Below are positions 1,979 to 23,365 of a stretch of DNA of 64,000 bases, one piece after another (position 1 is the stretch's first letter; every line of letters begins with the position of its first letter). The stretch covers positions 1 to 64,000 of the forward strand of contig JANQEE010000017.1 of the NCBI GenBank assembly GCA_028278525.1. Direction: 5' to 3'. Origin of the DNA: Minwuiaceae bacterium (GTDB taxonomy: Bacteria > Pseudomonadota > Alphaproteobacteria > Minwuiales > Minwuiaceae). The notes under the pieces were generated by a model. It did no database searches and was not told where the DNA came from. It saw only the letters and a list, made by a program, of their open reading frames with translations. The translations under genes and the position numbers were made by a program.

Positions 1979-2722
1979 ATGAGACAGCCGACGGTCGGAA
2001 TCCTGATGCTGAAAACCGGCTTCCCTCGCCCGATTGGCGACATCGGCAACGAGGAAACGTGGCCGTTCCCGGTTCTCTACGAGACGGTCGATCCGGCGAC
2101 GGTCGACCGCGTCGTCAATCCGGCTCCACGGGTCGATCTGCTGCTTGAACCGTTCGTTGAAGCGGGGCTGCGGCTGGTGAATGCCGGTGCCGACCTGATC
2201 ACAACGTCATGCGGGTTCCTCATCCTGTTGCAGGCAAATCTGGCCACCCGGTTGCCCGTTCCAATCCTGACGTCCAGCCTGCAACAGATCCCGATGGTTC
2301 AAGCGACACTGCCGGCGGGCCGACGTGTGGGCGTGATATCGGTGAATGCAGCCAATCTGACAGAAAAGCACTTGCGGGCGGCCGGGGCGCCCGCGGACAC
2401 GTCCGTTGTCGGAACGGAAGACGGCCAGGAACTGACCAGGGTGATCATGGAGGACCTGAGAGAGATGGATGTTGCCGCGGCCGAGGCCGACGTTATTCAG
2501 GCGGGAGAAACGCTACTGGCCGGCAGTCCTTCAACTGGCGCAATCGTCTTGGAGTGCACCAACATGGCGCCGTACGCGAATGCCTTGCAGCACCATATCG
2601 GCTTGCCGGTCTACGACATCGTCAGCCTGGTGACTTGGTTCCAGGCAGGCGCCGCCCCGCGGACCTGGGCCGAAACGACGTCATCGGGGCACGAGAAACA
2701 TGTTAGAAATGTGAGGGAATGA
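1979..2722 (+). CDS. aspartate/glutamate racemase superfamily protein
   Basis: A 247-residue member of the Asp/Glu/hydantoin racemase superfamily, which epimerises substrates without a cofactor using two cysteines. Both expected cysteines are visible: Cys78 in the TTSCGF motif and Cys193 in LECTN, each followed by the usual small or Asn/Thr residues. The start at 1979 is preceded by GGGAGG at good spacing. The open frame runs further upstream to 1874 but without family-like sequence. It is followed 57 bases later by a TRAP-type binding protein and then a FAD amine/hydroxyacid oxidase. This suggests a small uptake and catabolic group for a chiral acid or amino acid. The exact substrate cannot be read from the sequence, and a maleate isomerase-like role is the main alternative. 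Confidence 0.8.
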   Translation: MRQPTVGILMLKTGFPRPIGDIGNEETWPFPVLYETVDPATVDRVVNPAPRVDLLLEPFVEAGLRLVNAGADLITTSCGFLILLQANLATRLPVPILTSSLQQIPMVQATLPAGRRVGVISVNAANLTEKHLRAAGAPADTSVVGTEDGQELTRVIMEDLREMDVAAAEADVIQAGETLLAGSPSTGAIVLECTNMAPYANALQHHIGLPVYDIVSLVTWFQAGAAPRTWAETTSSGHEKHVRNVRE

Positions 2723-2779
2723 AGACAGCATGTCGTTTCAGGGCACGACGGCGCAGATAAGACCAAAAAAGGAGCCGAC

Positions 2780-3775
2780 ATGGGAAAATTGTTGTGCTGC
2801 GCGATGTCGGTCGCGTCTTTCTTTACTGGGACGGTCGCTATTGCGGCGGAGAAATGGGACATGCCGCTGGCCTATTCGGCGACGAACTATCATTCGAAGA
2901 ACGCCGCGCTGTTTGCGGACGCGGTTACGGCCGCCACCGGAGGCGAGCTGGAAATCGTCACACACCCAAGCGGCTCCCTCTTCAAGAGCAGTGAAATAAA
3001 GCGCGCCGTTCAGACCGGGCAAGCGCAGATCGGTGAGCGCCTGATTTCGGCACTGGGTAACGAGAACCCGTTCTTCGAAGTCGATGCCCTGCCCTTCGTC
3101 GCGACCAGCTTCGAAGACGCCTGGGACCTTTACGAGGCGAGCAAACCGACCCTTACAAGCATTCTGGATAAACAAAACTTGGTGCTGCTCTACGCGGTAC
3201 CGTGGCCGCCGCAAGGCCTTTATACGAAGGAGCCGGTGCAATCGGCTGCCGATATGAAGGGGGTGAAATTCCGGGCTTACAACGCCATGACAACGAGAGT
3301 CGCGGAGTTGATGGGTTCGATCCCGACACAGATCGAAGCCGGCGAAATAAGCCAAGCCTTCGCAACCGGCGTCGCTGAGAGCATGATTTCGTCAGGCTCC
3401 ACAGGTTACGACCGGAAACTCTGGGAGCATACCAAATACTGGTACGACGTTCAGGCGTGGCTCCCCAAGAACATGGTGGTCGTCAACAAGGGAACGTGGA
3501 ACGGCCTGGACGAAAGGACGCGGGGGATCATTACCGGCGCCGCCGCGATGGCCGAGCAGGCCGGCTGGGCCAAAGCTCGAGAGCTCTCCGAATGGTACAA
3601 AGAACAACTGGCGGCGAACGGCATGACAATCTTGCCGCCCGGGGACACACTGAAGGCCGATTTAGAGACAATCGGGGCGACGATGACGTCTGAATGGCTG
3701 GAGCGTGCCGGCGCCGATGGCAAATCAGTGATCGAGAAATTCAAATCGATGCAGTTAGGGCATGACGAGCCATGA
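2780..3775 (+). CDS. TRAP transporter substrate-binding protein (DctP family)
   Basis: A 331-residue periplasmic binding protein. It starts with a Sec signal peptide (hydrophobic core about residues 4-20, cleavage near AIA-AEKW). The mature part has the hallmarks of DctP proteins: an N-terminal strand followed by the ligand-carboxylate region with KFRAYN (about residues 160-180) and a long C-terminal helix. AAGGAGCC precedes the ATG. In a working TRAP system a small DctQ and a large DctM permease follow. Here no permease gene is present, only the last 46 codons or so of a DctM-like gene, overlapping the end of this one. The protein is therefore either an orphan serving permeases encoded elsewhere, or a decaying relic. 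Confidence 0.88.
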   Translation: MGKLLCCAMSVASFFTGTVAIAAEKWDMPLAYSATNYHSKNAALFADAVTAATGGELEIVTHPSGSLFKSSEIKRAVQTGQAQIGERLISALGNENPFFEVDALPFVATSFEDAWDLYEASKPTLTSILDKQNLVLLYAVPWPPQGLYTKEPVQSAADMKGVKFRAYNAMTTRVAELMGSIPTQIEAGEISQAFATGVAESMISSGSTGYDRKLWEHTKYWYDVQAWLPKNMVVVNKGTWNGLDERTRGIITGAAAMAEQAGWAKARELSEWYKEQLAANGMTILPPGDTLKADLETIGATMTSEWLERAGADGKSVIEKFKSMQLGHDEP

Positions 3776-3902
3776 GATTACCTATGTCGCCCGTGCGACG
3801 GCACCGATGTTCGGCATCATGTGTAATGCGGTTGCGATGATCGTACTGCTGCCAGATATAGCAACCTTCTTGCCGGCTAAGATGTCGGGCCGCCGATTGT
3901 AG
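3762..3902 (+). pseudogene. remnant: C-terminal end of a TRAP large permease (DctM-like)
   Basis: A 46-codon frame opens with ATG at 3762, overlapping the last 14 bases of the binding-protein gene in another frame, and ends in TAG at 3902. Its peptide (one hydrophobic helix, then PDIATFLPAKM and a short basic tail) has the shape of the extreme C-terminus of DctM permeases, which end in a transmembrane helix followed by an aliphatic-P-x-I-x-x-x-LP motif. The remaining DctM sequence and the whole of DctQ are absent. I read it as the scar of a deletion that removed the permease genes. It could still be expressed as a single-helix peptide. Confidence 0.55.
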
Positions 3903-3917
3903 CCAGGTACCACCATC

Positions 3918-5027
3918 ATGGAACAGTTGGACTGCGTCGTCATCGGCGCCGGTGTCATCGGCCTCGCAGTTGCCAGGGCACTCGCCCTGGATGGGCGTGA
4001 AGTTATTGTCCTGGAGGCAACGTCCTCAATCGGCAGCGAGACAAGCTCGAGAAACTCCGAGGTCATCCATGCCGGCATCTACTATCCGACCGGCAGCCTA
4101 AAAGCCCGACTATGCTTGGCTGGCAAGATCGCCCTCTACCGCTATTGCGAGGAGCGCGGCATTGCTCATTCGCGACTGGGAAAACTCATCGTCGCAACCG
4201 CCGACGAGCAGATACCAACGTTGCAAAAACTTCGCGAGCAGGCGCACAGGAACGGCGTCGATGACGTCGACTTCGTCGATACTACCGATCTACACGATAT
4301 GGAACCCGAGCTGACCGCTGTAGCCGCTCTCCGCTCGCCGTCGACCGGAATCATCGACAGCCACGGGTTTATGCTGGCATTGGAAGGCGACGCCGAAAAC
4401 GCCGGAGCAGTACTGGTGTTGAACACACCGTTGGTTGGGGGGAGGATCGAGGCAGGTAAAATTGTCGCGGAGACTGGCGGCAAGGACCCAATGGCTTTTC
4501 GCTGCAACGCACTTGTCAACTGCGCCGGCTTGAAAGCGCCGTCAATCGCCACTCTTATCGATGGATTATCGCCCGACAGCGTTCCCGAGAGCTATTATGC
4601 AAAGGGCAATTACTACACGCTAACCGGACGCAACCCGTTCAAGCATCTGATCTATCCCGTGCCCGTCGATGGCGGGCTGGGCGTGCATGTGACAATTGAC
4701 CTTGGAGGGCAAGCTCGCTTCGGTCCAGATGTCGAATGGATAGACGAGATCAATTATGACGTCGATCCGGCACGCGCGGAAAATTTCTACGAAGCCATCC
4801 GTCGATACTGGCCGGGTTTGCAGGATGATGCGCTCCAGCCTGGCTACGCCGGCGTTCGTCCCAAGCTATCGCCCCGTGGATCGTCGGCAAACGATTTCGT
4901 GATCCAGGACTGGGAAGAGCATGGCGTGGATGGATTGATCAATTTATACGGTATCGAGTCGCCGGGCCTCACAGCTTCCCTGGCAATTGCGGATCAGGTC
5001 GTCGCGAGGCTTCGCGCAGCCGGTTGA
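3918..5027 (+). CDS. FAD-dependent oxidoreductase, L-2-hydroxyglutarate oxidase (LhgO)-like
   Basis: A 369-residue DAO-superfamily flavoenzyme. The N-terminus carries the Rossmann FAD motif [10 protein letters not shown] followed by the acidic end of strand 2 (VLEA) at about residues 9-35. A GNYY stretch near residue 230 and the [10 protein letters not shown] block near residue 312 are typical of the LhgO/YgaF group, which oxidises L-2-hydroxyglutarate or related hydroxy acids and passes electrons to the membrane quinone pool. Length matches the family. It starts 15 bases after the TRAP remnant and is probably transcribed with the racemase and binding-protein genes. An amino-acid oxidase specificity cannot be excluded. 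Confidence 0.82.
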
Positions 5028-5075
5028 CTGCCAGCAGCCGACAGCTCGCAGCAACGATAGACAACACTTTCTCGG

Positions 5076-5831
5076 TCAGACGGGCGCTGGTCTTTCCAAA
5101 GCCGATTCTATTTGTTCGATCTGCTGATCTACGGAAATTGGCATGATCGAGGTGATTTCGAGGTCACGATCCTCGAATACGTCGTTTCCCTGATGCTTCT
5201 CGCCCCAGTCGGCAACAGCCTCGTCACGAAGCCGAAGCAGGTGAGCGATCTGGGGCTGGAACAAGATAAGCATTGCGGAGAGCCACCGGTTCGTTGGCCA
5301 CGAAGGCTGCGCGTGGTCCATTTCGAAGTGATCGACCATTCGAAGCACGTCCCCCGCCTCGAACCAGTTTTCCCCCGTAACCCATCGGTTCGTCGTGAAG
5401 AGATGAGTCGGATATCCAAGCTTATCCATCGAAATGGCGATCAGATGGGTGATGACATCGTCACCTTCCGGCCAGTCGACCTCCCCCTTATGAGCGATCG
5501 GCTCAATTTCAGCCGGCATCCCCTTTTTTCGCAGAAACGTATGGAAGTGCCCGTGCTCTCCGGTCGCGCCTCTATGAGCATGATAATAGTACTGTGAATG
5601 AGTCTCGCTGTCGTAAATGTCACCCTTGGGATAGTGATCCCATTCGTAGAACGTGCCCTGCTCTCTTAGAATTTCACCGACGACATTGAGGTTGGCCTTG
5701 CTAAGAACGCGATAGCATTCCATCACCTCTCGGCCCGCGGCCGCCATTCTTTGGAGCCTTTCGCGAGGTATTGTGGCGAAGTCCGGCTGCTCGTTTCTCT
5801 GATCTTCCGAGATGTCCGAAACATCAGCCAT
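5076..5831 (-). CDS. uncharacterised protein (DUF6969-like) downstream of a SUMF1-domain gene
   Basis: A 251-residue soluble protein with no signal peptide. Its centre is rich in His and aromatic residues (YYYHAHR, then EHGHFHTF at about residues 80-105), which could make a metal site. From memory it resembles the uncharacterised DUF6969 group; that assignment was not checked. The ATG at 5831 is preceded by TAAGGA at good spacing and is preferred over an upstream in-frame ATG at 5867. Its upstream neighbour, the SUMF1-domain gene, ends 39 bases before this start, so the two are almost certainly co-transcribed. Function is unknown. The exported partner and the divergent cytochrome suggest a link to redox or metal chemistry, which is inference only. 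Confidence 0.7.
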   Translation of the reverse strand: MADVSDISEDQRNEQPDFATIPRERLQRMAAAGREVMECYRVLSKANLNVVGEILREQGTFYEWDHYPKGDIYDSETHSQYYYHAHRGATGEHGHFHTFLRKKGMPAEIEPIAHKGEVDWPEGDDVITHLIAISMDKLGYPTHLFTTNRWVTGENWFEAGDVLRMVDHFEMDHAQPSWPTNRWLSAMLILFQPQIAHLLRLRDEAVADWGEKHQGNDVFEDRDLEITSIMPISVDQQIEQIESALERPAPV

Positions 5832-5870
5832 CGATTGTTCCTTACCTGCCTTTACCGCCGTGGTCATATT

Positions 5871-6728
5871 TTATTCTCTGACAAGCCTAAAACCGATCAA
5901 TATATGCTTTATCCCTTCGGGCCGGGAATGCCGTGCCGCGGAGCGGCAGACACCGCACCCTTTGTCGTCCCAGGAGCCGCCCTTAACGATGTAACGGCCA
6001 TCGCCCGCCTTCGTTGACGTCCATTCGAAAACCTGGCCGGCCGCATCAAGAGCGCCGAAAGGACTCGCTGCATCCGAAAAGCCGCCCACGGCAACGGTAT
6101 CGAAAGGGCCTTGATCATGGCTGTTGAGCTTCTCGGCATCGAATTCGTTGCCCCAGGGAAACCAACGACCGTCGGTGCCGCGCGCCGCTTTCTCCCACTC
6201 CAATTCGGTGGGCAGACGCCATGAGTATTTAGAGTTGGCCGACAGCCAGGCTGCGTAAGCGACGGCATCTTCATAAGCCACCAGCACTACCGGATGGTTT
6301 TCGCGGCCCTCTGGAAGTCGCCCTTCCACCCACGCGTGGCGCCGAGTCCGCTCGTAAGGATGCACCAACCGGTACCCTGCCCAAACCGCGGGAGCCACAT
6401 CAGGTGCCGAATACCCGGTTGCGTCGATGAACGCCTGATATTGAGCGTTCGTTATCGGCGTGCGCGTGATCGAGTACGCGCCTGTAACAATTTCCTGTAA
6501 CCGATGTTCGTATTCGTACCACTTTTGATTTCTGGTAGCGCTGTGGCCATACGCAGCCTCATCCAACCGGTACCCGGCTTCCCGCTGCGCCTGGTCCGAA
6601 CCGAAAATGAACTTACCTGCCGGAATGGCAACGACGCTGGGCGCGTTTACTATAATGTCCGCGTCGACTTGCCCGACTGCTACTAGGATTAGCGCACTAG
6701 CGAATGTTACTTTGATTGCTTTGCGCAT
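5871..6728 (-). CDS. exported SUMF1 / formylglycine-generating-enzyme-like domain protein
   Basis: A 285-residue protein with a Sec signal peptide (basic start MRKAIK, hydrophobic core, cleavage near VDA) followed by one SUMF1 fold. Recognisable blocks are IPAGKFIFGSD, PITNAQYQAFI, RLPTELEWEKAARG, FPWGNEFD, VFEWT, KGGSW and GFRLVRE. In true formylglycine-generating enzymes two active cysteines follow the GGS(W/Y) block. Here the stretch reads GGSWDDKGCGVCRSAAR, so the first cysteine is replaced by Asp and only one aligns. It is probably a paralogue without sulfatase-activating activity. It is divergent from the CNPC-repeat cytochrome P460 and in an operon with the DUF6969-like gene. Confidence 0.85.
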   Translation of the reverse strand: MRKAIKVTFASALILVAVGQVDADIIVNAPSVVAIPAGKFIFGSDQAQREAGYRLDEAAYGHSATRNQKWYEYEHRLQEIVTGAYSITRTPITNAQYQAFIDATGYSAPDVAPAVWAGYRLVHPYERTRRHAWVEGRLPEGRENHPVVLVAYEDAVAYAAWLSANSKYSWRLPTELEWEKAARGTDGRWFPWGNEFDAEKLNSHDQGPFDTVAVGGFSDAASPFGALDAAGQVFEWTSTKAGDGRYIVKGGSWDDKGCGVCRSAARHSRPEGIKHILIGFRLVRE

Positions 6729-6769
6729 GTTGAATCGACATCGGGGCTCCGGCAATGAGCTAAATATAT

Positions 6770-6796
6770 GCAGGCTCGAACCTGCTGCGACGCAGC
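6770..6796. promoter_or_regulatory. overlapping dyads in the SUMF1 / P460 divergent promoter region
   Basis: Between the divergent starts at 6728 and 6902 lie two abutting inverted repeats: GCAGG-CTCGAA-CCTGC (6770-6785) and GCTGC-GAC-GCAGC (6784-6796). Such paired dyads in a divergent intergenic region are typical of a shared operator. They could equally be hairpins in the leader of the minus-strand transcript. No regulator gene is adjacent. Confidence 0.4.
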
Positions 6797-6901
6797 ATCA
6801 CACTCTTTTGAGGGGACGTGACTGGTCTTCAATTGCGACAATACCCAGTCTGTCCCGGCCTATGAGCCATGGTCGAATGACTTACTAAAAGGAGGCGTGT
6901 C

Positions 6902-8062
6902 GTGACGTCGCATAAGAACAAGCTCCTCTCAAGCACCGTCGCAAATGCAGTGATTGGCCTTGGCCTTGCGGCGGGGGGCAGCATTGCGCTCGCGCAGATT
7001 GCGTTTGCGGCCACGCCACGTAGTGCGGAAAATCCGCCGGCCGTTGCAAAGTCAGGCCCGGAAGGCATTCGGGTAGCGGCCTGCTCCGCCAAGAATGCCT
7101 GCAATCCATGTGCGGCCAAGGCTTGCAATCCGTGCGCGGCAAGAGCCTGTAATCCGTGTGCTGCCAATGCCTGCAACCCTTGCGCGGCGAATCCATGCAA
7201 TCCTTGCGGTGCGGGCGGCGGAAACGCTTCCGCAAAGTGCACGATACCAAGACTTGTTACGGCCGCGCTGTGCAACCCGTGTGCAGCGAAGGCCTGCAAC
7301 CCGTGTGCAGCGAAGGCCTGCAACCCATGCGCAGCGAAGGCCTGCAACCCGTGCGCAGCGAAGGCCTGCAACCCGTGCGCAGCGAAGGCCTGCAACCCGT
7401 GCGCAGCGAAGGCCTGCAACCCATGCGCAGCGAAGGCCTGCAACCCATGCGCAGCGAAGGCCTGCAACCCATGCGCAGCGAAAGCTTGCAATCCATGCGC
7501 CGCCAACGCATGCAACCCATGCGCGGCCAACCCGTGCAATCCGTGTGGGGCAGGCTCGACAATAGAGATTACGAATGCGGAGGCTCGGGCTGCTTACGAT
7601 TGCTTACTGGACGAGATGGTCGCCGGATACCGGAAGTCCGGCGATAAGACCTCGGGACTGTACAAAGGCTGGAAAGCCTTCAACAACGCGCCCTATCAGT
7701 CAGGCACCCATGGCGGCCGATACGTCAACAACTACGCGAACGCCGTCGCCGAGGTCAATTACGGGAAATATGAGGACGTCGGAAAGATGCCGGTCGGGTC
7801 CGTCCTCGCGAAAGACAGCTTCGCGGTTATGGGAAATGGCCGCACGGCGGCTGGGCCACTCTTTATCATGGAGAAGGCATTCGCCGGCTTCAGCCCTGAA
7901 ACCAACAACTGGAAATACTCGATGGTCATGCCGGACGGTTCTGTCTTTGGAGTCACTGGCGGCAAGGGGGCAAAGAACGTAGAATTTTGCCATCAATGCC
8001 ATGTGGCGGTGGCCGAAGACCAAGACGCTTTGTTCTTCCTTCCGGACGAATTCCGCAAGTAA
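6902..8062 (+). CDS. exported cytochrome P460-domain protein with 17 CNPC repeats
   Basis: A 386-residue protein translated from a GTG preceded by a strong AAAAGGAGG. Residues 1-37 are a Sec signal peptide (cleavage near AFA). Residues 67-102 carry five, and residues 124-215 twelve, tandem units of C-N-P-C-A-A-(K/N/R)-A with a strict eight-residue period. Residues 225-386 look like a cytochrome P460 domain, ending with a single c-type haem site CHQCH (363-367). P460 proteins oxidise hydroxylamine or related N-compounds, or detoxify NO. The cysteine array, 34 Cys in CxxC pairs, could bind metal ions or clusters or act as a disulfide-rich stalk; neither can be decided from sequence. A terminator follows at 8122. 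The divergent SUMF1 gene may act in the same compartment. Confidence 0.85.
   Translation: MTSHKNKLLSSTVANAVIGLGLAAGGSIALAQIAFAATPRSAENPPAVAKSGPEGIRVAACSAKNACNPCAAKACNPCAARACNPCAANACNPCAANPCNPCGAGGGNASAKCTIPRLVTAALCNPCAAKACNPCAAKACNPCAAKACNPCAAKACNPCAAKACNPCAAKACNPCAAKACNPCAAKACNPCAAKACNPCAANACNPCAANPCNPCGAGSTIEITNAEARAAYDCLLDEMVAGYRKSGDKTSGLYKGWKAFNNAPYQSGTHGGRYVNNYANAVAEVNYGKYEDVGKMPVGSVLAKDSFAVMGNGRTAAGPLFIMEKAFAGFSPETNNWKYSMVMPDGSVFGVTGGKGAKNVEFCHQCHVAVAEDQDALFFLPDEFRK
7100..7546 (+). repeat. 24-bp in-frame tandem repeat encoding CNPCAAKA units
   Basis: Unit starts (the first Cys codon) fall every 24 bases at 7100-7196 (five units) and at 7271-7535 (twelve units), separated by a 51-base non-repeat linker. 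The first nine units of the second block are almost identical at the nucleotide level, differing mainly at third positions (CCG/CCA, TGT/TGC). Units of the first block have diverged. This pattern indicates recent tandem expansion under protein-level constraint, and copy number is expected to vary between strains. Confidence 0.95.
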
Positions 8063-11553: not shown

Positions 11554-12543
11554 GTGACAATATGGAAGTTGGTTCACTACACTAGGGTTTTCTACAACTG
11601 GCGTATCAAAAAACGCGTTTCAGTCCCCTACATGCCTGAAGATATTGCCGTTGAGATCACGAACGTCTGCAACTTCAAATGCGCGTTCTGTCCACAATCC
11701 GACCCCAATCATCACGAATTGGTTCCGAAGTCTTATCTAGATCCGGAAACGGTCGATCTATTCCTGAGTCGTGTCCGAGACGCAGGTGTGAAAACAAACA
11801 CCATACATTGGACCCACGACGGCGAGCCGTTCATGAACAAGCGCTTCCATGAAATTTGCGCTGTGGGGGGGAGGCACGGCTTCACGAACGCATATTTCGC
11901 AACCAATGGAATGTTGCTAACGGAAGATCGGATAAAACAGCTACCAAGTGACAGCACATATACCTTCACAATCGACTACTGCTCGGACAGGGACTACTTC
12001 GAAACCGTTCGTGGCACCAAAGGCTCTTGGGAAACCGTAAAAACGAACATCGAAAACATCCTCAAAAACCACGACCACATAAATCTGGAAGTCACCGACA
12101 TCTCTGCTTTCAGCATAGAAGACGCTGATATCGTCAAAGCAAACTACGAAGCCCTAATAGACCTCCTCCCAGACAGCGAACGGCTCAAGGTCTGGACGAA
12201 GACGTTCCACAACGCGACAGGTTTTGTATCGAAAAAGATCAAAAAGAACGACCGCTACAATCTCTGTCCATATCCATGGACATCTCTCTCAGTAGCTTCT
12301 AACGGCGACGTAGTAGCCTGTTGCCGCGATCTTCAGCACAAGACCGTTCTCGGCAATCTGAAGTTTCAATCCCTCCCGGAAATCTGGAACGGCACGGCGA
12401 TGCTTGAGTTGCGGCAGAACCTTGTGGATCGAAAACCGGAGTGTTCCGCTGCCTGCGAAGGATGCGATCTGCCCTACGACGCGGACAAATTCTCAATGAA
12501 AAACATTATCAAAACGGTCCGTGGCAGGCTGCAGGTCTTTTAG
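11554..12543 (+). CDS. radical SAM / SPASM-domain protein inside the phage locus
   Basis: A 329-residue radical SAM protein. The CxxxCxxC iron-sulfur motif (CNFKCAFC) lies at residues 39-46, and the C-terminal SPASM region carries CPYPW, ACC and the CxxxCxxC cluster CSAACEGC, so it should bind an auxiliary cluster. Such enzymes modify peptides (thioether bonds, epimerisation, quinone maturation) or other small substrates. The GTG at 11554 is preceded by a G-rich site; the frame stays open to an ATG at 11467, which would overlap the opposite gene. It is the only plus-strand gene in the phage locus, converges with the fibre gene with a 4-base overlap, and is visibly less GC-rich. This suggests a cargo gene. 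No precursor peptide was identified. Confidence 0.8.
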   Translation: MTIWKLVHYTRVFYNWRIKKRVSVPYMPEDIAVEITNVCNFKCAFCPQSDPNHHELVPKSYLDPETVDLFLSRVRDAGVKTNTIHWTHDGEPFMNKRFHEICAVGGRHGFTNAYFATNGMLLTEDRIKQLPSDSTYTFTIDYCSDRDYFETVRGTKGSWETVKTNIENILKNHDHINLEVTDISAFSIEDADIVKANYEALIDLLPDSERLKVWTKTFHNATGFVSKKIKKNDRYNLCPYPWTSLSVASNGDVVACCRDLQHKTVLGNLKFQSLPEIWNGTAMLELRQNLVDRKPECSAACEGCDLPYDADKFSMKNIIKTVRGRLQVF

Positions 12544-13589
12544 GTCAGGCGTAACAGCGCCGCAATGATGGTGCGGTTCGCGCCGCTGGTGTTCTGAATC
12601 GCCACTTGATCTGAGCCATTGATGACGACACTAAGGCCGGGAGCCGCCACGATGGAAATGACATTGTCGTCTGTCCCCCGCCGGTAGATCAGATAGAGGC
12701 CGGGATTACCACTGTTACCGGCGATGCTCTCTTGTGCCGTCAACAAATAGCTAGCATCATCAACAAGTGTGAGTGACAGCGTGAGTGTCTGGCCGGTGGA
12801 GAACGATGTCGAGGCACGCTCGCCAGCAACACGATTGTTGAAAGTCGTTACAGCTGCGCCTGATACGCTGAAGGTCTCAACCCCACTCGAGGCAAAACTA
12901 GACCGCCCAAGGGACCAGAACCAACCAGTATCAACATCAGACCCATGAATTGAGGGCTCAGTCTCCGAGCCGTCAGGGACTTCTACGGGAACCGAAAACG
13001 TCTTTTGAGTGCTGTCCAGCCGCTCCCTTTCTAAACCACCCGTAGATTCCGCAATGGTGTCCGCGGCGGGGAAAAATCTGCCTGTATCCGTATCCCCTCT
13101 AAACCGAATGCTGGGCGCTGTCTCTATTCCATCGTCAACAGTGATAGTCCCAGGCGTGCCTTGGTTGTCTGCTCTTTGCGCCGATAGTTGCACAACTAAA
13201 GCTTCGTTCGCCAATGCCCCAGTGTCAAAGGCCACGGTCACTGTCGTGTCTGGACTGGAGAAGGAACTGGCTGTGATAGTGCCATAAATCGTTCCGGGGG
13301 TAGAGGCAGTAACCTTCACCCGTCGCCCTATATGGTATTCCCCGGTTACGTCCATCGCAGGACTTGATACCACCTTGAATTGGTTCGCTGAGACGAACGC
13401 GTAGGTTCCTGCCTTACCACCGTCGCCGTAGTCAAACCACTGCGCGTCATTCCACTGCCTGCGCACCGCCGCCATAACTTCTCTGGCGGCGTCATTCACA
13501 CCCGATGGGGCCATCCCTTCCGGGAACCCATTGGGAACAGCATCGATGTTTTGCGATGCCGTGGTGGACCAGGATTTGATATCGGTCAT
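12540..13589 (-). CDS. putative phage tail fibre or tail-spike protein
   Basis: A 349-residue protein rich in Ser, Thr, Gly and beta-prone repeats, with an N-terminal block (PSGVNDAAREVMAAVRRQW, about residues 28-46) seen in many phage fibre proteins, where it may fold onto the virion. The body contains alternating TDTGRFF and VDTGWFW motifs, suggesting repeated beta modules, and the C-terminus is a compact beta domain. It is the last gene of the late operon, where receptor-binding proteins usually lie. The receptor is unknown. Confidence 0.7.
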   Translation of the reverse strand: MTDIKSWSTTASQNIDAVPNGFPEGMAPSGVNDAAREVMAAVRRQWNDAQWFDYGDGGKAGTYAFVSANQFKVVSSPAMDVTGEYHIGRRVKVTASTPGTIYGTITASSFSSPDTTVTVAFDTGALANEALVVQLSAQRADNQGTPGTITVDDGIETAPSIRFRGDTDTGRFFPAADTIAESTGGLERERLDSTQKTFSVPVEVPDGSETEPSIHGSDVDTGWFWSLGRSSFASSGVETFSVSGAAVTTFNNRVAGERASTSFSTGQTLTLSLTLVDDASYLLTAQESIAGNSGNPGLYLIYRRGTDDNVISIVAAPGLSVVINGSDQVAIQNTSGANRTIIAALLRLT

Positions 13590-13712
13590 ATCGGCCCCTT
13601 AAAGGTCTGGAACTGATGTGGGATTTCGTGTGGGTTTCATTCGGTCCGCAGTGAAGAGTGTTGGCGGGTGACCGAATCAGTCGACTTTGGCGATTTGTGA
13701 GGACTTTGATCG

Positions 13713-14588
13713 CTACAGCAGGCCTATCAATCCACCAATGCCGCCGCCCACCAGAGCGCCAGCTGGACCCGAACCTACCCCCGCCAGGGCTCCCTTAAGC
13801 ACGTTGCCGAAAAGTCCACCGGAGCTTTTCGGCGCCGGTTGGATCGTGCTGGTGAGCACAGGCCCGCCCAACGTGAAGCTCTGGAAGCGCGCCAGATTCT
13901 CGATTGGCCGGTTCTGTGCGAAGTTGAACCGGTTGATTCTGTCCTGCAATTGCGCGCCGCTGAAAGCCTCCCCTGCGGCGCCGACGTTGGCCAGTTGGCC
14001 AAGATCGGAAAATCTGGCCTGCTGAAAGGTAGGTGCCAGCCCCGTGGCCCGGAACTGCTCGTTGGCAAGCTGCTGGGCGGCGCTCAATTGGTTCGCCCGT
14101 TCCTTGGCGAAGCTCTCACCGAACAACTGGTTGGCGGCGTTACCAAGGCTGTCGGCCAGCACTCGTGTGTTCGCGGCACTGCCGAAACGGCCACTGCCGA
14201 TGAAGGACGAATTGACGTTGTCGCGAATTCCCGGTGCGACCTGCCGTGCAAAAATGTTGCGCAGAAACGGATTGGAATCCGGAGACAAGAATTGTCCGGA
14301 CGCTGTCTCCGCTAGCGATCGGAGTCCCGGCGCGCCCGAAAAATCGCCCCGCAGTTGACTGGCCAGCCGCTGCGAAGCAGCGTCGAATACAGGAGATCCC
14401 CGCCTCGCGGCTTCCGCGATGCCACGCAACGCTTCCAACGTCTCACTCGACTGTGGAACGAACGTCTGAAAACCGGGAAACTGCGGACCGCCTCCGGCGA
14501 AGATGTCCTCGGCCTTGGACAGAATAGTGCGGAACGCTTCTGCCTGCTCAGGGATTGCAAAGCCTGTTGTCGTTTTTGACTTGGGCAT
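13713..14588 (-). CDS. phage virion protein, unknown role
   Basis: A 291-residue protein with a helical, Ala/Gln-rich body (NQLSAAQQLANEQFRATG, about residues 165-182) and a C-terminal glycine/alanine-rich hydrophobic tail (LAGVGSGPAGALVGGGIGG). Phage proteins with such glycine-zipper tails often sit inside the virion and enter the membrane during DNA ejection. It lies just after the tail genes, 4 bases downstream of the small beta protein. Function is inferred only from position and composition. Confidence 0.6.
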   Translation of the reverse strand: MPKSKTTTGFAIPEQAEAFRTILSKAEDIFAGGGPQFPGFQTFVPQSSETLEALRGIAEAARRGSPVFDAASQRLASQLRGDFSGAPGLRSLAETASGQFLSPDSNPFLRNIFARQVAPGIRDNVNSSFIGSGRFGSAANTRVLADSLGNAANQLFGESFAKERANQLSAAQQLANEQFRATGLAPTFQQARFSDLGQLANVGAAGEAFSGAQLQDRINRFNFAQNRPIENLARFQSFTLGGPVLTSTIQPAPKSSGGLFGNVLKGALAGVGSGPAGALVGGGIGGLIGLL

Positions 14589-14591
14589 CTC

Positions 14592-14909
14592 TTATCCTTG
14601 AATCGAATATTTGAAGGTCCGGACGGTGGCGTTCGACAGGTGGGTCACCGTGAACGAGCCGTCCGCATAGGCCGAGACGAATGTCGACGGGAGCTCCGAA
14701 GCCGCCGCCGCATTGAAAGGCGACAGATGTAAAACGCTATCGGCCGCTACGTTTTCGTCGCTTACAACCGTGGACACTTGGTTGAGTGCCAAGTCGAATT
14801 GGCCGACCGCGTTCGACCTGCCCTTGCCCAGCAGGTCGGCGGCCTGGGCAATTTCCCGCTTATCGAGTTCTAGTCCGCGGGACGTTGGTATCGGCGGCGT
14901 GAAACTCAC
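14592..14909 (-). CDS. small phage structural protein
   Basis: A 105-residue protein starting at a GTG that overlaps the stop of the preceding gene (GTGA), indicating translational coupling. The C-terminal half (FVSAYADGSFTVTHLSNATV) is beta-rich and ends in YSIQG, a pattern I have seen in small podovirus virion proteins. The N-terminal half is a helix. The exact role is unknown; it might be a head or tail decoration or connector component. Confidence 0.65.
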   Translation of the reverse strand: MSFTPPIPTSRGLELDKREIAQAADLLGKGRSNAVGQFDLALNQVSTVVSDENVAADSVLHLSPFNAAAASELPSTFVSAYADGSFTVTHLSNATVRTFKYSIQG

Positions 14910-16405
14910 CGCTTTCCACTCGGTTTGATGGCGGGGTCGACACCCACCGCATGAGTCCAACCATCGTCCGATGCGATCATGGTGCGGAACCTGTGGTAGC
15001 GGGCGTCTTCCCTGAAATCCGCCTCGCCGATGTCATTCAACGACTTGGTCGGACCGAACGAAACGGCATCCGTTTGCCGTTGGCGCGTCCCGAGTTGCAG
15101 GGTAACGCTCGCGGCTGACGCGCCGTCGATCAGGGGCCGCACGGACGACACATGCGCCGTTCCACCCGGATTCGCGTTTACCTCCCCGGTCTCGAGTGTC
15201 GCCGGAAGGGCCTCACCGTTGAAGAAGGCAAGCCTGTTGCTCCGGTCGAACGCGGCCAGCAAAAGTGTGTTGCTCATCCACTGGCGACTGTCCAGCGACG
15301 GCATTACTTCATCAAGGCTGGCGAAGAAGTTATCCAGGTTGTCGAGCGTGACGCTGTCGCTTAGCGCTGGGTAGACAAGTTCCAAATCGACTTCGGCTTG
15401 GGCCCAACGATTGTTATTGAAGTCGTATAGAAGAAGCTTGTCCGGATCGCCGTTACCTTTTGAGTTACCGGTCGGGTAAGCCCAAACGACAACGCTCTGA
15501 ATAGGGTCGACAGCTGCCGAGATTCGATCGAAGCGCGACTGGTCGACCTCGCTGTAGAACAGGTTGTTGACCTTGTTTGCCCCTATGGGAACTGATTTCG
15601 CACCATCGAATGCGTAGAACCCGTCCCAACCCAGGTAAAAGAACGTGTTCCCACTCCGCGTTACACTGCCCGGCGCAGGCGTCCCTCGTCCCTCTTCAAC
15701 CTCGGCGAACGAAAAGACGTTCGGCGCGCCGACGAAATCCATGCGCCATATCGAACGCTCCTGCCAAATGACTCCGAACTCTCCGCCGCATACCCTCTGT
15801 ATCCAGCCGCCATTCCCTTGCAGGTCCTGCTGGCCGGCCAGATCCGTCCCGGAAAGCCAGCCTGTTTCATCGCCTGCCGCAGACCACTGCACCCTGTTTG
15901 GCACCAGGCTATCACCGCCGACATCATCGACATTCGCCAGCACAAGAAACGAGTCCTGTTTGCCGACCGAACAAATATGCCGTGCGTTTGGCGGAGACCC
16001 CGCCAGATCGGCAAACTGGGTCCCTCCCAAAGTGACGATCTGAGGCGGGGTATTGATCGCGACCGCGATCAGTTTGTTGCCGAATGCGGCAAATTCCCAA
16101 TTCTCCTGCGACCCCAGATCATATCCCTGGACGGGTAGTCCGGCCTTGCTTTGATCAATTGCGGCGGAACTGGAAACGCGGTAGAGCTTCGATGCGTCGC
16201 CTGCGTAGTTGAACGTGTTTCCATCCTTGTCACGAAGCGAAAAGGCGCCTCGCGCGTAGTTATCAAGTGCGGCCGCTTGCGCGTTCAGTCTACTGAGCGG
16301 CCGGTAAGAGTTGAGTCCGGGAACGACGTTTCTCGCGACCGTTGCCCCTGGATTGTTCAGGCTTGGAAGATCCGGCAGCCATTCGGCGAAAGGGATAACA
16401 GGCAT
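14906..16405 (-). CDS. phage tail hub/needle-knob type beta-propeller protein (P22 gp10-like)
   Basis: A 499-residue protein with repeated beta-blade signatures (FNYAGDASKLYR, WEFAAFGNKLIAV, FLVLANVDD, FFYLGWDGFYAFDG, LLLYDFNNNRWA). This resembles the packaged-DNA stabilisation or tail-nozzle proteins of P22-like short-tailed phages, which build the tail tube below the portal. The start MPVIPFAEWLPDLP is shared by several such proteins in my memory. It overlaps its neighbours by 1 and 4 bases. Assignment to gp10 proper is tentative. Confidence 0.65.
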   Translation of the reverse strand: MPVIPFAEWLPDLPSLNNPGATVARNVVPGLNSYRPLSRLNAQAAALDNYARGAFSLRDKDGNTFNYAGDASKLYRVSSSAAIDQSKAGLPVQGYDLGSQENWEFAAFGNKLIAVAINTPPQIVTLGGTQFADLAGSPPNARHICSVGKQDSFLVLANVDDVGGDSLVPNRVQWSAAGDETGWLSGTDLAGQQDLQGNGGWIQRVCGGEFGVIWQERSIWRMDFVGAPNVFSFAEVEEGRGTPAPGSVTRSGNTFFYLGWDGFYAFDGAKSVPIGANKVNNLFYSEVDQSRFDRISAAVDPIQSVVVWAYPTGNSKGNGDPDKLLLYDFNNNRWAQAEVDLELVYPALSDSVTLDNLDNFFASLDEVMPSLDSRQWMSNTLLLAAFDRSNRLAFFNGEALPATLETGEVNANPGGTAHVSSVRPLIDGASAASVTLQLGTRQRQTDAVSFGPTKSLNDIGEADFREDARYHRFRTMIASDDGWTHAVGVDPAIKPSGKR

Positions 16406-21914: not shown

Positions 21915-23365
21915 TTGGCCGCTACGTCGAGGTCGCGCTGCAAAAAGCCGCTCGACCGCCCGGACCGGAACCTGCGGTCGCCGATAGATACAGGCAACGC
22001 TTTGAGAACACCCTCCGAAGGACGAAGGAACGGGTTCGGGGGTGGCAAAAAGACCGGTTCTGATTCATTCGGCCCACCGACGAAATTCGGGTTGGGCACC
22101 AATTCAACTGACCTACTTGGCTGCAAGAGAACCGACGCAGGATCGTCAACCTGTCGAATTGCATCAAGGAACAGATTGAGCTTCGGCCTGAACTGCTGGA
22201 AATTGTTCGCGGCACCGATATCGGGAGCCTCGTTTTCAGCAATCGTTCCCTCTCTCTTGAATACCGGAGCCAGCTCGCGGATTTTGGCGTCGATCTTGGC
22301 TTGGTCGCCCTTCAATACACCGGATCGTAAGGCTCCGATCACGAATGCATCCGTGGCATCGCCCAAATCGGAGAATCGGCCGGTCAAGCCTGTCTGTCTG
22401 TCGCCTTTGCCGATGAACCCGGCATCGGTCACAACGAACCGGCCCGGCCTGCCCCCAATAGTCCCGAAATCCCCTACATCGGGATTAAATTTCGCACCTA
22501 GCTCACGTCTGACCTTGTCCAGGGCCATTACGGCCCGTCTACCGAGATTGTCGGCATCGGCGCTGGTCAGATCGCCTTTGGCATCCGCATCCGTAACAGT
22601 GGGTCTGCCTAATCTATTGAAGCCAATCCTCGCCTTGAGGTTGGTCCTCGACCCCCTGGTGAGGTTAAAGATCGCTGGAATAGCGAAGGCGGCCAAAGGC
22701 AGCAGAGGCAGCAGCGCGGCACCAGCCGGAGCAGCGGCAGCCGCGGCACTCGCCCCACTGCCTGCGCCGGTTGCTCCTGCCCCGGCGGCCCCGGCTCCGG
22801 CAGCGCCTAGTCCGGAAGCTGCATTTGTGCCTATGGATGCGCCTACGGGTACCCCCGCAACCGACCCTATTGAACCCCCAGCGCCCAATCCGGAAGCCGC
22901 GCTAGTGCCGATCGATGCGCCAACGGGCACTCCGGCAACAGTACCTATCGAAGACCCGCCGGCGGCACCGCCGCCAAATCCGAAAGCCGATGCGATCGAA
23001 GAGCCGATCTCGCCAAAGGACGGTATCCCCAATTGCTGCGCCAGCGTCCCCAATCCCTCTGACACGAACTCGTTCAGGCCGAGCTTCCCGGCGAGACCGA
23101 CGGCTTGCTCGATCATGTCAGGCGTTGCCGGTTGCGTGACACCCTGCCCGCCACCCCGCGGCTGCAAGAACCCGCCCTGAACCTGCGGCAGCGCCGTTCT
23201 GATCTGCTCCACTGGCGGCTGCAGCAGGCCGAGCGCCCGCTGCGGCTGCCCGGGATTGATGATCACCGGCGGCCTGCGTTGTTCGATCTGCCGGAGCGGC
23301 TGTTGGTTTAAAGCGGCCAGCAGTCGCGCAGTCGCCGTCAGCCGCGGGTCTGTCACCTGCGGCAT
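21911..23365 (-). CDS. large virion protein with Gly/Ala-rich centre
   Basis: A 484-residue protein. The N-terminal 100 residues are Gln/Pro/Leu-rich. The centre (about residues 130-230) is an array of Gly-Ala-Ser repeats with two near-identical copies of a SIGTVAGVPVGASIGT-like unit and a hydrophobic AAPAGAALLPLLPLAAF stretch. The C-terminal half looks globular. The central glycine-zipper and hydrophobic segment would suit a protein ejected with the DNA to form a channel. It starts one base inside the portal stop codon. Confidence 0.6.
   Translation of the reverse strand: MPQVTDPRLTATARLLAALNQQPLRQIEQRRPPVIINPGQPQRALGLLQPPVEQIRTALPQVQGGFLQPRGGGQGVTQPATPDMIEQAVGLAGKLGLNEFVSEGLGTLAQQLGIPSFGEIGSSIASAFGFGGGAAGGSSIGTVAGVPVGASIGTSAASGLGAGGSIGSVAGVPVGASIGTNAASGLGAAGAGAAGAGATGAGSGASAAAAAAPAGAALLPLLPLAAFAIPAIFNLTRGSRTNLKARIGFNRLGRPTVTDADAKGDLTSADADNLGRRAVMALDKVRRELGAKFNPDVGDFGTIGGRPGRFVVTDAGFIGKGDRQTGLTGRFSDLGDATDAFVIGALRSGVLKGDQAKIDAKIRELAPVFKREGTIAENEAPDIGAANNFQQFRPKLNLFLDAIRQVDDPASVLLQPSRSVELVPNPNFVGGPNESEPVFLPPPNPFLRPSEGVLKALPVSIGDRRFRSGRSSGFLQRDLDVAAK

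Follow-up and report, generated by a model that had tools for sequence, protein, structure and literature searches.

The question raised by this locus is what a long, regular array of cysteines does ahead of a small haem domain. Within a stretch of 64,000 nucleotides from a Minwuiaceae bacterium (hereafter the window), one gene encodes an exported c-type cytochrome in which a predicted signal sequence is followed by a first cysteine block, a linker of 21 residues, a second cysteine block and a haem domain ending in CHQCH. An AAGGAGG ribosome-binding site lies closely upstream of the GTG start codon. Two genes in divergent orientation, encoding a DUF6969 protein and an exported FGE-like protein, adjoin it (Table 1). 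The exported cysteine arms together with these two helper genes point to an extracytoplasmic handling of metals or sulfur that has not been described. Our leading reading, to which we assign a probability of roughly 45%, is that an exported multi-thiolate arm next to a haem handles soft metals, with Cu(I) as the likeliest ion, and that both neighbouring genes encode maturation or loading factors. Elsewhere in the window, a 78-base unit is tandemly repeated at 22801-22952 (1.9 copies with 78% matches), and phage-like minus-strand ORFs for structural or tail-type proteins occur at 12540-16405, possibly a prophage remnant.

Table 1. Features of the array-P460 locus and further array peptides of the same genome (positions in the window; for L013, L014 and L015, positions within these loci)
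Feature	Position	Strand	Remarks
DUF6969 (PF22308)	5076-5867	-	no signal peptide seen; conserved His residues
Exported FGE-like protein (PF03781)	5871-6728	-	from ATG; TTG start at 6755 also open
Invariant CGxC (here CGVC) of the FGE-like subfamily	5946-5957	-	44/44
Intergenic region between the divergent FGE-like and array-P460 genes	6729-6901	.	
Array-P460 gene	6902-8062	+	GTG 6902 to TAA 8062; 386 aa; exported c-type cytochrome
Predicted N-terminal signal sequence KNKLLSSTVANAVIGLGLAAGGSIALAQIAFA	6902-7012	+	from sequence; putative cleavage site
Array block 1	7100-7207	+	5 CNPC units, residues 67-102
Conserved linker GGNASAKCTIPRLVTAAL with C113 (7238-7240)	7214-7270	+	predicted strand and helix
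Array block 2	7271-7546	+	12 CNPC units, residues 124-215
P460/c'-beta haem domain	7574-8059	+	Pfam part 7661-8035; AlphaFold, Foldseek
C234, predicted disulfide partner of C113	7601-7603	+	
K304, aligned with the haem-crosslinking Lys (Lys106 of NsP460)	7811-7813	+	kept in 105/105 relatives
CHQCH haem c attachment site, single	7988-8002	+	
Small exported CNPC peptide L013	5110-5388	-	same genome, contig C44
Small exported CNPC peptide L014	5199-5561	-	same genome, contig C50
Small exported CNPC peptide L015	4980-5231	+	same genome, contig C71

The preliminary description of this DNA had proposed an exported cytochrome P460 with a single C-terminal CHQCH site, and both the site and the family assignment hold. 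The Pfam family Cytochrome_P460 (PF16694) matches the window protein with 28.6 bits against a cut-off of 27, and AlphaFold gives a confident domain at about residues 222-386, for which Foldseek retrieved the P460/c'-beta structures 7s5o, 2je2 and 6hih with a probability of 1.00; by its modelled fold, the protein belongs to the P460/c'-beta superfamily. A sequence search of the PDB with the P460 domain yielded 7s5o as the sole match, and a weak one. A cross-linked haem is plausible from the alignment, where all 105 relatives carry a lysine at the position of the haem-crosslinking residue (Lys106 in NsP460, PMC11928373). Hydroxylamine oxidation appears doubtful from the aligned residues: the distal carboxylate of hydroxylamine-oxidising P460 proteins (Glu96 / Asp102) falls opposite a phenylalanine in one alignment of low identity. 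An invariant histidine is aligned near the capping position. Among array-P460 homologues, a lipoprotein-type site replaces the ordinary signal sequence in some (L068, L071 and L118).

The array comprises exactly 17 CNPC motifs with 34 cysteines, as had been described, in blocks of 5 and 12 motifs, and the protein contains 39 cysteines in total, those outside the array being C61, C113, C234, C363 and C366. The motifs recur every 8 residues everywhere but across the linker, where the spacing is 25. CNPCAAKA is exact in 10 of the 17 units, and the others read CNPCAARA, CNPCAANA, CNPCAANP or CNPCGAG(G/S), so that the earlier wording of strictly periodic CNPCAAKA units was slightly overstated. The array DNA has a TRF score of 410 at period 24. 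All 228 differences in CNPC codons over all pairs of units in the window are synonymous and none is nonsynonymous, the pairs being non-independent and recent duplication contributing to this count; the more diverged units of block 1 still retain every Cys, Asn and Pro. The number of cysteines ranges between 10 and 88 among the homologues. In 74 homologous alphaproteobacterial arrays, 1577 of 1584 NP pairs have a Cys directly after them, while the residues between the cysteines vary (CNPC 1196, CGAC 110, CGPC 56, CSPC 40 and CGGC 25). Repeats drifting into cysteine-free sequence beside a retained P460 domain, which the preliminary description had named as the mark of a mere spacer, are absent from the array-bearing homologues. 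Because only the positions between cysteines vary in these proteins, the array cysteines matter and a spacer is unlikely. A Pfam match to Cornifin (PF02389, 48 bits) was rejected as a compositional match to eukaryotic Cys/Pro repeats.

In homologues, the two blocks are likewise separated by a conserved C(V/I/F)(V/I)PRL linker. Structure models, which had been suggested earlier, were built with AlphaFold for 24 full-length sequences; in the window protein, the linker (strand 109-114, helix 116-124) and the haem domain are predicted to be ordered, whereas most of both blocks has pLDDT below 50. The linker cysteine (C113) and the haem-domain cysteine (C234) co-occur in 69 of 69 proteins. Array proteins that lack the linker have Ser or Asn at the position of C234 (L083 and L092), with L045 as the one exception, and array-less paralogues lack a cysteine there with rare exceptions. 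Since the two cysteines co-occur and linker-less proteins mostly lack the second, a C113-C234 disulfide probably pins the linker to the haem domain, which would leave two flexible cysteine arms free.

A scan of genome contigs found 80 homologous alphaproteobacterial loci in Rhodospirillales, Kiloniellales, Sneathiellales and metagenome-assembled genomes, most of them with an array. In a tree built from 105 P460 domains, 3 changes of the array label suffice, compared to 26.5 in shuffles, the array is kept through 75 rows, and the array-less paralogues constitute essentially one separate clade. L105 and L117 each encode a protein that resembles class III nucleotidyl cyclases, has a predicted membrane segment and ends in an array-less P460 domain (2715-3203 and 7001-7489, respectively); it is possibly a haem-based gas sensor. 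In Kiloniellaceae and Pelagibius (L064, L082, L086, L088, L091, L093 and others), an array-less P460 paralogue and an Rrf2 regulator adjoin the array-P460 gene, with SUF-type genes farther upstream.

The preliminary description had suggested a survey of array-bearing proteins for their attached domains. Its frame, limited to P460, was too narrow: arrays also exist without any attached domain and as parts of SoxA/TsdA-type cytochromes, which makes them mobile modules that are not specific to P460. The window genome encodes three further small exported CNPC peptides, two of them adjoining sensor kinases. One of these belongs to a conserved row of a VTT membrane protein, a flavin disulfide reductase, a small array peptide and a histidine kinase (L013 3552-7713, L184, L186, L189, L190 and L194), which spans several alphaproteobacterial genera. 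Fusions of arrays to SoxA/TsdA cytochromes occur in other Pseudomonadota (PF21342; up to 47 bits in the tested L218, L222, L224, L227 and L228, and others look alike); in these fusions, a downstream cysteine resembles the SoxA/TsdA haem ligand. In L234, an array stands on a CxxCH protein without a Pfam match, so that a third haem-type fusion is likely. Finally, arrays of the family f168 contain Met and His (NPCAMKHMKKHNPCSMKKMNPC) and are not accompanied by DUF6969, which rules out that every array needs this protein. Such Met/His-rich NPC arrays were seen in L218, L219, L221 and L229; in L218 and L221, the array adjoins both an array-SoxA/TsdA-type fusion and a CxxCH cytochrome-like protein.

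The two partner genes tend to occur where the array does. A trio of array, FGE-like and DUF6969 genes recurs in another genus at 60% identity, and it is found at many loci in altered arrangements, the genes being co-directional in L099 and L118 and DUF6969 lying downstream in L061, L063 and L074. We searched 289 alphaproteobacterial genomes with two DNA patterns (at least two hits) and found coding arrays in 40, five genomes with apparently non-coding DNA repeats having been excluded by eye. DUF6969 is present in 38 of the 40 array genomes and in 24 of the 249 others (Fisher p ~1e-28, a test that ignores shared ancestry; p ~4e-24 with the five excluded genomes counted as array genomes), and FGE-like orthologues are present in 19 of 40 versus 1 of 249 (again with a Fisher test that ignores shared ancestry). 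In many genomes, DUF6969 adjoins small array peptides without P460, and outside the Alphaproteobacteria this adjacency was found in G353 and G476. Because of these P460-free arrays, and because G089, G267 and G273 keep an array and both partner genes without such a P460 protein, the DUF6969 and FGE-like genes are tied to the array rather than to P460; the same three genomes led us to reject the array as a part of P460 function. In the 23 divergent intergenic regions, no FNR, CueR or Rrf2-like boxes were found, and the commonest shared 8-mer, present in 7 of the 23, is probably driven by related loci. A PHROGs search gave no informative match.

The conserved residues of DUF6969 include H78, H96, H98, E104, H107, H109, H141 and N160, suggesting a metal site. 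Its structure model is confident (88.7), and a fold search returned no PDB match with E below 0.28, the best VIA-align hit having a Z of 5.4 over 46 residues, which by itself is no proof of a new fold; as the fold is not recognised, an enzymatic role for DUF6969 is a guess. The FGE-like protein carries the FGE-sulfatase domain (PF03781, 144.8 bits) and scores below all NCBIfam equivalog cut-offs. Its subfamily has a C-terminal VKGGSWDDxGCGxCR motif with both cysteines invariant (44/44), the spacing of which presumably differs from that of the Cu(I)-binding cysteine pair of FGE. As half of the array genomes lack the FGE-like gene, it cannot be essential.

How these parts may work together can be formulated as follows. 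The arms would serve as periplasmic multi-thiolate ligands: with two thiolates presented on a tight turn by every CxxC pair, a single arm could bind soft metals in large number, Cu(I) being the likeliest ion and Zn, Cd or Hg also possible, in a metallothionein-like or bufferin-like manner. DUF6969, which is predicted to be cytosolic and has a cluster of conserved His residues, would work on the array while this is still inside the cell. After export, the FGE-like protein, itself exported and equipped with two cysteines close to the Cu(I) site of FGE, would load the array or act on it, and the haem would adjust or detect how oxidised the bound metal or thiols are. We place the metal model first because small arrays without haem exist, because some arrays, namely those of f168, add Met and His, and because one partner resembles a cuproenzyme; in FGE itself, Cu(I) is bound by two cysteines (PMC12123546), and the reported bufferin precursors with cytochrome c and FGE-sulfatase fusions (PMC12452194) are a further hint of metal. 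Against it, the window array contains neither Met nor His, and neither a CueR-type box nor a known metal gene was seen adjoining the window gene.

Other observations point to sulfur instead. In 11 loci, genes for YeeE/YedE sulfur transporters occur in the vicinity of array genes, and in G476 (L225, around 2200-6060) a small NPC peptide with DUF6969 is surrounded by YeeE/YedE and two rhodanese genes. The arms might thus be redox-active thiols for electrons or sulfane sulfur, the CxxC pairs passing into disulfides or persulfides and the fused haem taking the electrons, as SoxAX does with SoxY. Fusion to at least two unrelated haem families (P460 and SoxA/TsdA), with the CxxCH type of L234 as a likely third, and the operon shared by small arrays and a flavin disulfide reductase are in line with this possibility. 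This is the main rival of the metal model, and we regard it as the less likely of the two: next to the window gene, we noticed no gene for YeeE, a rhodanese or a Sox protein, the known substrates of P460 proteins are hydroxylamine and NO rather than sulfur, many arrays lack a haem, and the Met and His of some arrays suit a metal better.

We give about the same weight to a proposal that DUF6969 and the CGxC FGE-like protein covalently modify the array cysteines, the array then being a large product of the RiPP type that would need this modification in order to function; this is compatible with either the metal or the sulfur model. Both partner genes are tied specifically to the array, DUF6969 without a signal peptide could act before export, and FGE oxidises peptidyl cysteine in C-x-P-x-R (PMC12123546), the first three positions of which are matched by CNPC. 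However, the array (C-N-P-C-A) lacks the Arg of this motif, the CGAC arrays of L130 and L138 lack the Pro and still have FGE neighbours, and half of the array genomes have no FGE-like gene; the array is not a demonstrated FGE substrate. Tentatively, DUF6969 and the CGxC FGE-like protein may represent a new maturation pair that loads or modifies array cysteines, and the arrays a new class of periplasmic thiol cofactor, used alone or plugged into different c-type cytochromes. Finally, a purely structural element, whether spacer or disulfide-stiffened stalk, would fit a low-complexity array of such variable length that is predicted to be disordered, but it is very improbable given that the cysteines are retained while other positions vary, that some small exported proteins consist wholly of array and that arrays co-occur with specific partner genes, and the predicted disorder also disfavours the rigid form of the disulfide-rich stalk considered in the preliminary description.

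Searches of the open-access literature returned nothing relevant on CNPC arrays, DUF6969 or P460 with Cys repeats, and we found there no published description of this module of tens of ordered cysteines, which occurs across many Pseudomonadota and is attached to haem domains from two or more unrelated families. If the array binds copper, it would constitute a second exported copper-buffering system beside the bufferins, relying on different enzymes; as a carrier of sulfur or electrons, it would be a new kind of haem-thiol redox protein. In addition, a concrete, testable partner is now at hand for DUF6969, whose fold is not recognised and for which no function is known.

Among known systems, the bufferins and other MNIO-modified exported Cys-rich peptides share with the array protein a signal peptide, many cysteines and very long repeat versions, and bufferin precursors fused to cytochrome c and the FGE-sulfatase domain have been reported (PMC12452194). 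Their motif is EGKCG compared to CNPC here, where DUF6969 takes the partner place; because MNIO (PF05114) has no match in the window genome, which is 98% complete, the array-P460 protein is not a bufferin. The array resembles metallothioneins in sequence, with short repeated CxxC, few bulky residues and predicted disorder in the metal-free form; no metallothionein family in Pfam or NCBIfam matched the window protein, nor any in NCBIfam the small peptides. Unlike metallothioneins, the array is exported, fused to a haem domain and built of CNPC repeats. The FGE-like protein has in common with the FGE family (PF03781) the domain and cysteines near the C-terminal GGSW motif, whereas FGE's own cysteine pair is replaced by the invariant CGxC. 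SoxA/TsdA cytochromes (PF21342) carry NPC arrays in other Pseudomonadota, while the window protein has no SoxA/TsdA domain. With the P460/c'-beta superfamily (NeP460, 2je2; NeCP-beta, 7s5o), the window protein shares the fold, the C-terminal CxxCH and the position of the cross-link lysine; the members described in the publications consulted have no Cys array, whereas the window protein combines such an array with a phenylalanine aligned with the catalytic carboxylate and an invariant histidine near the capping position (PMC11928373).
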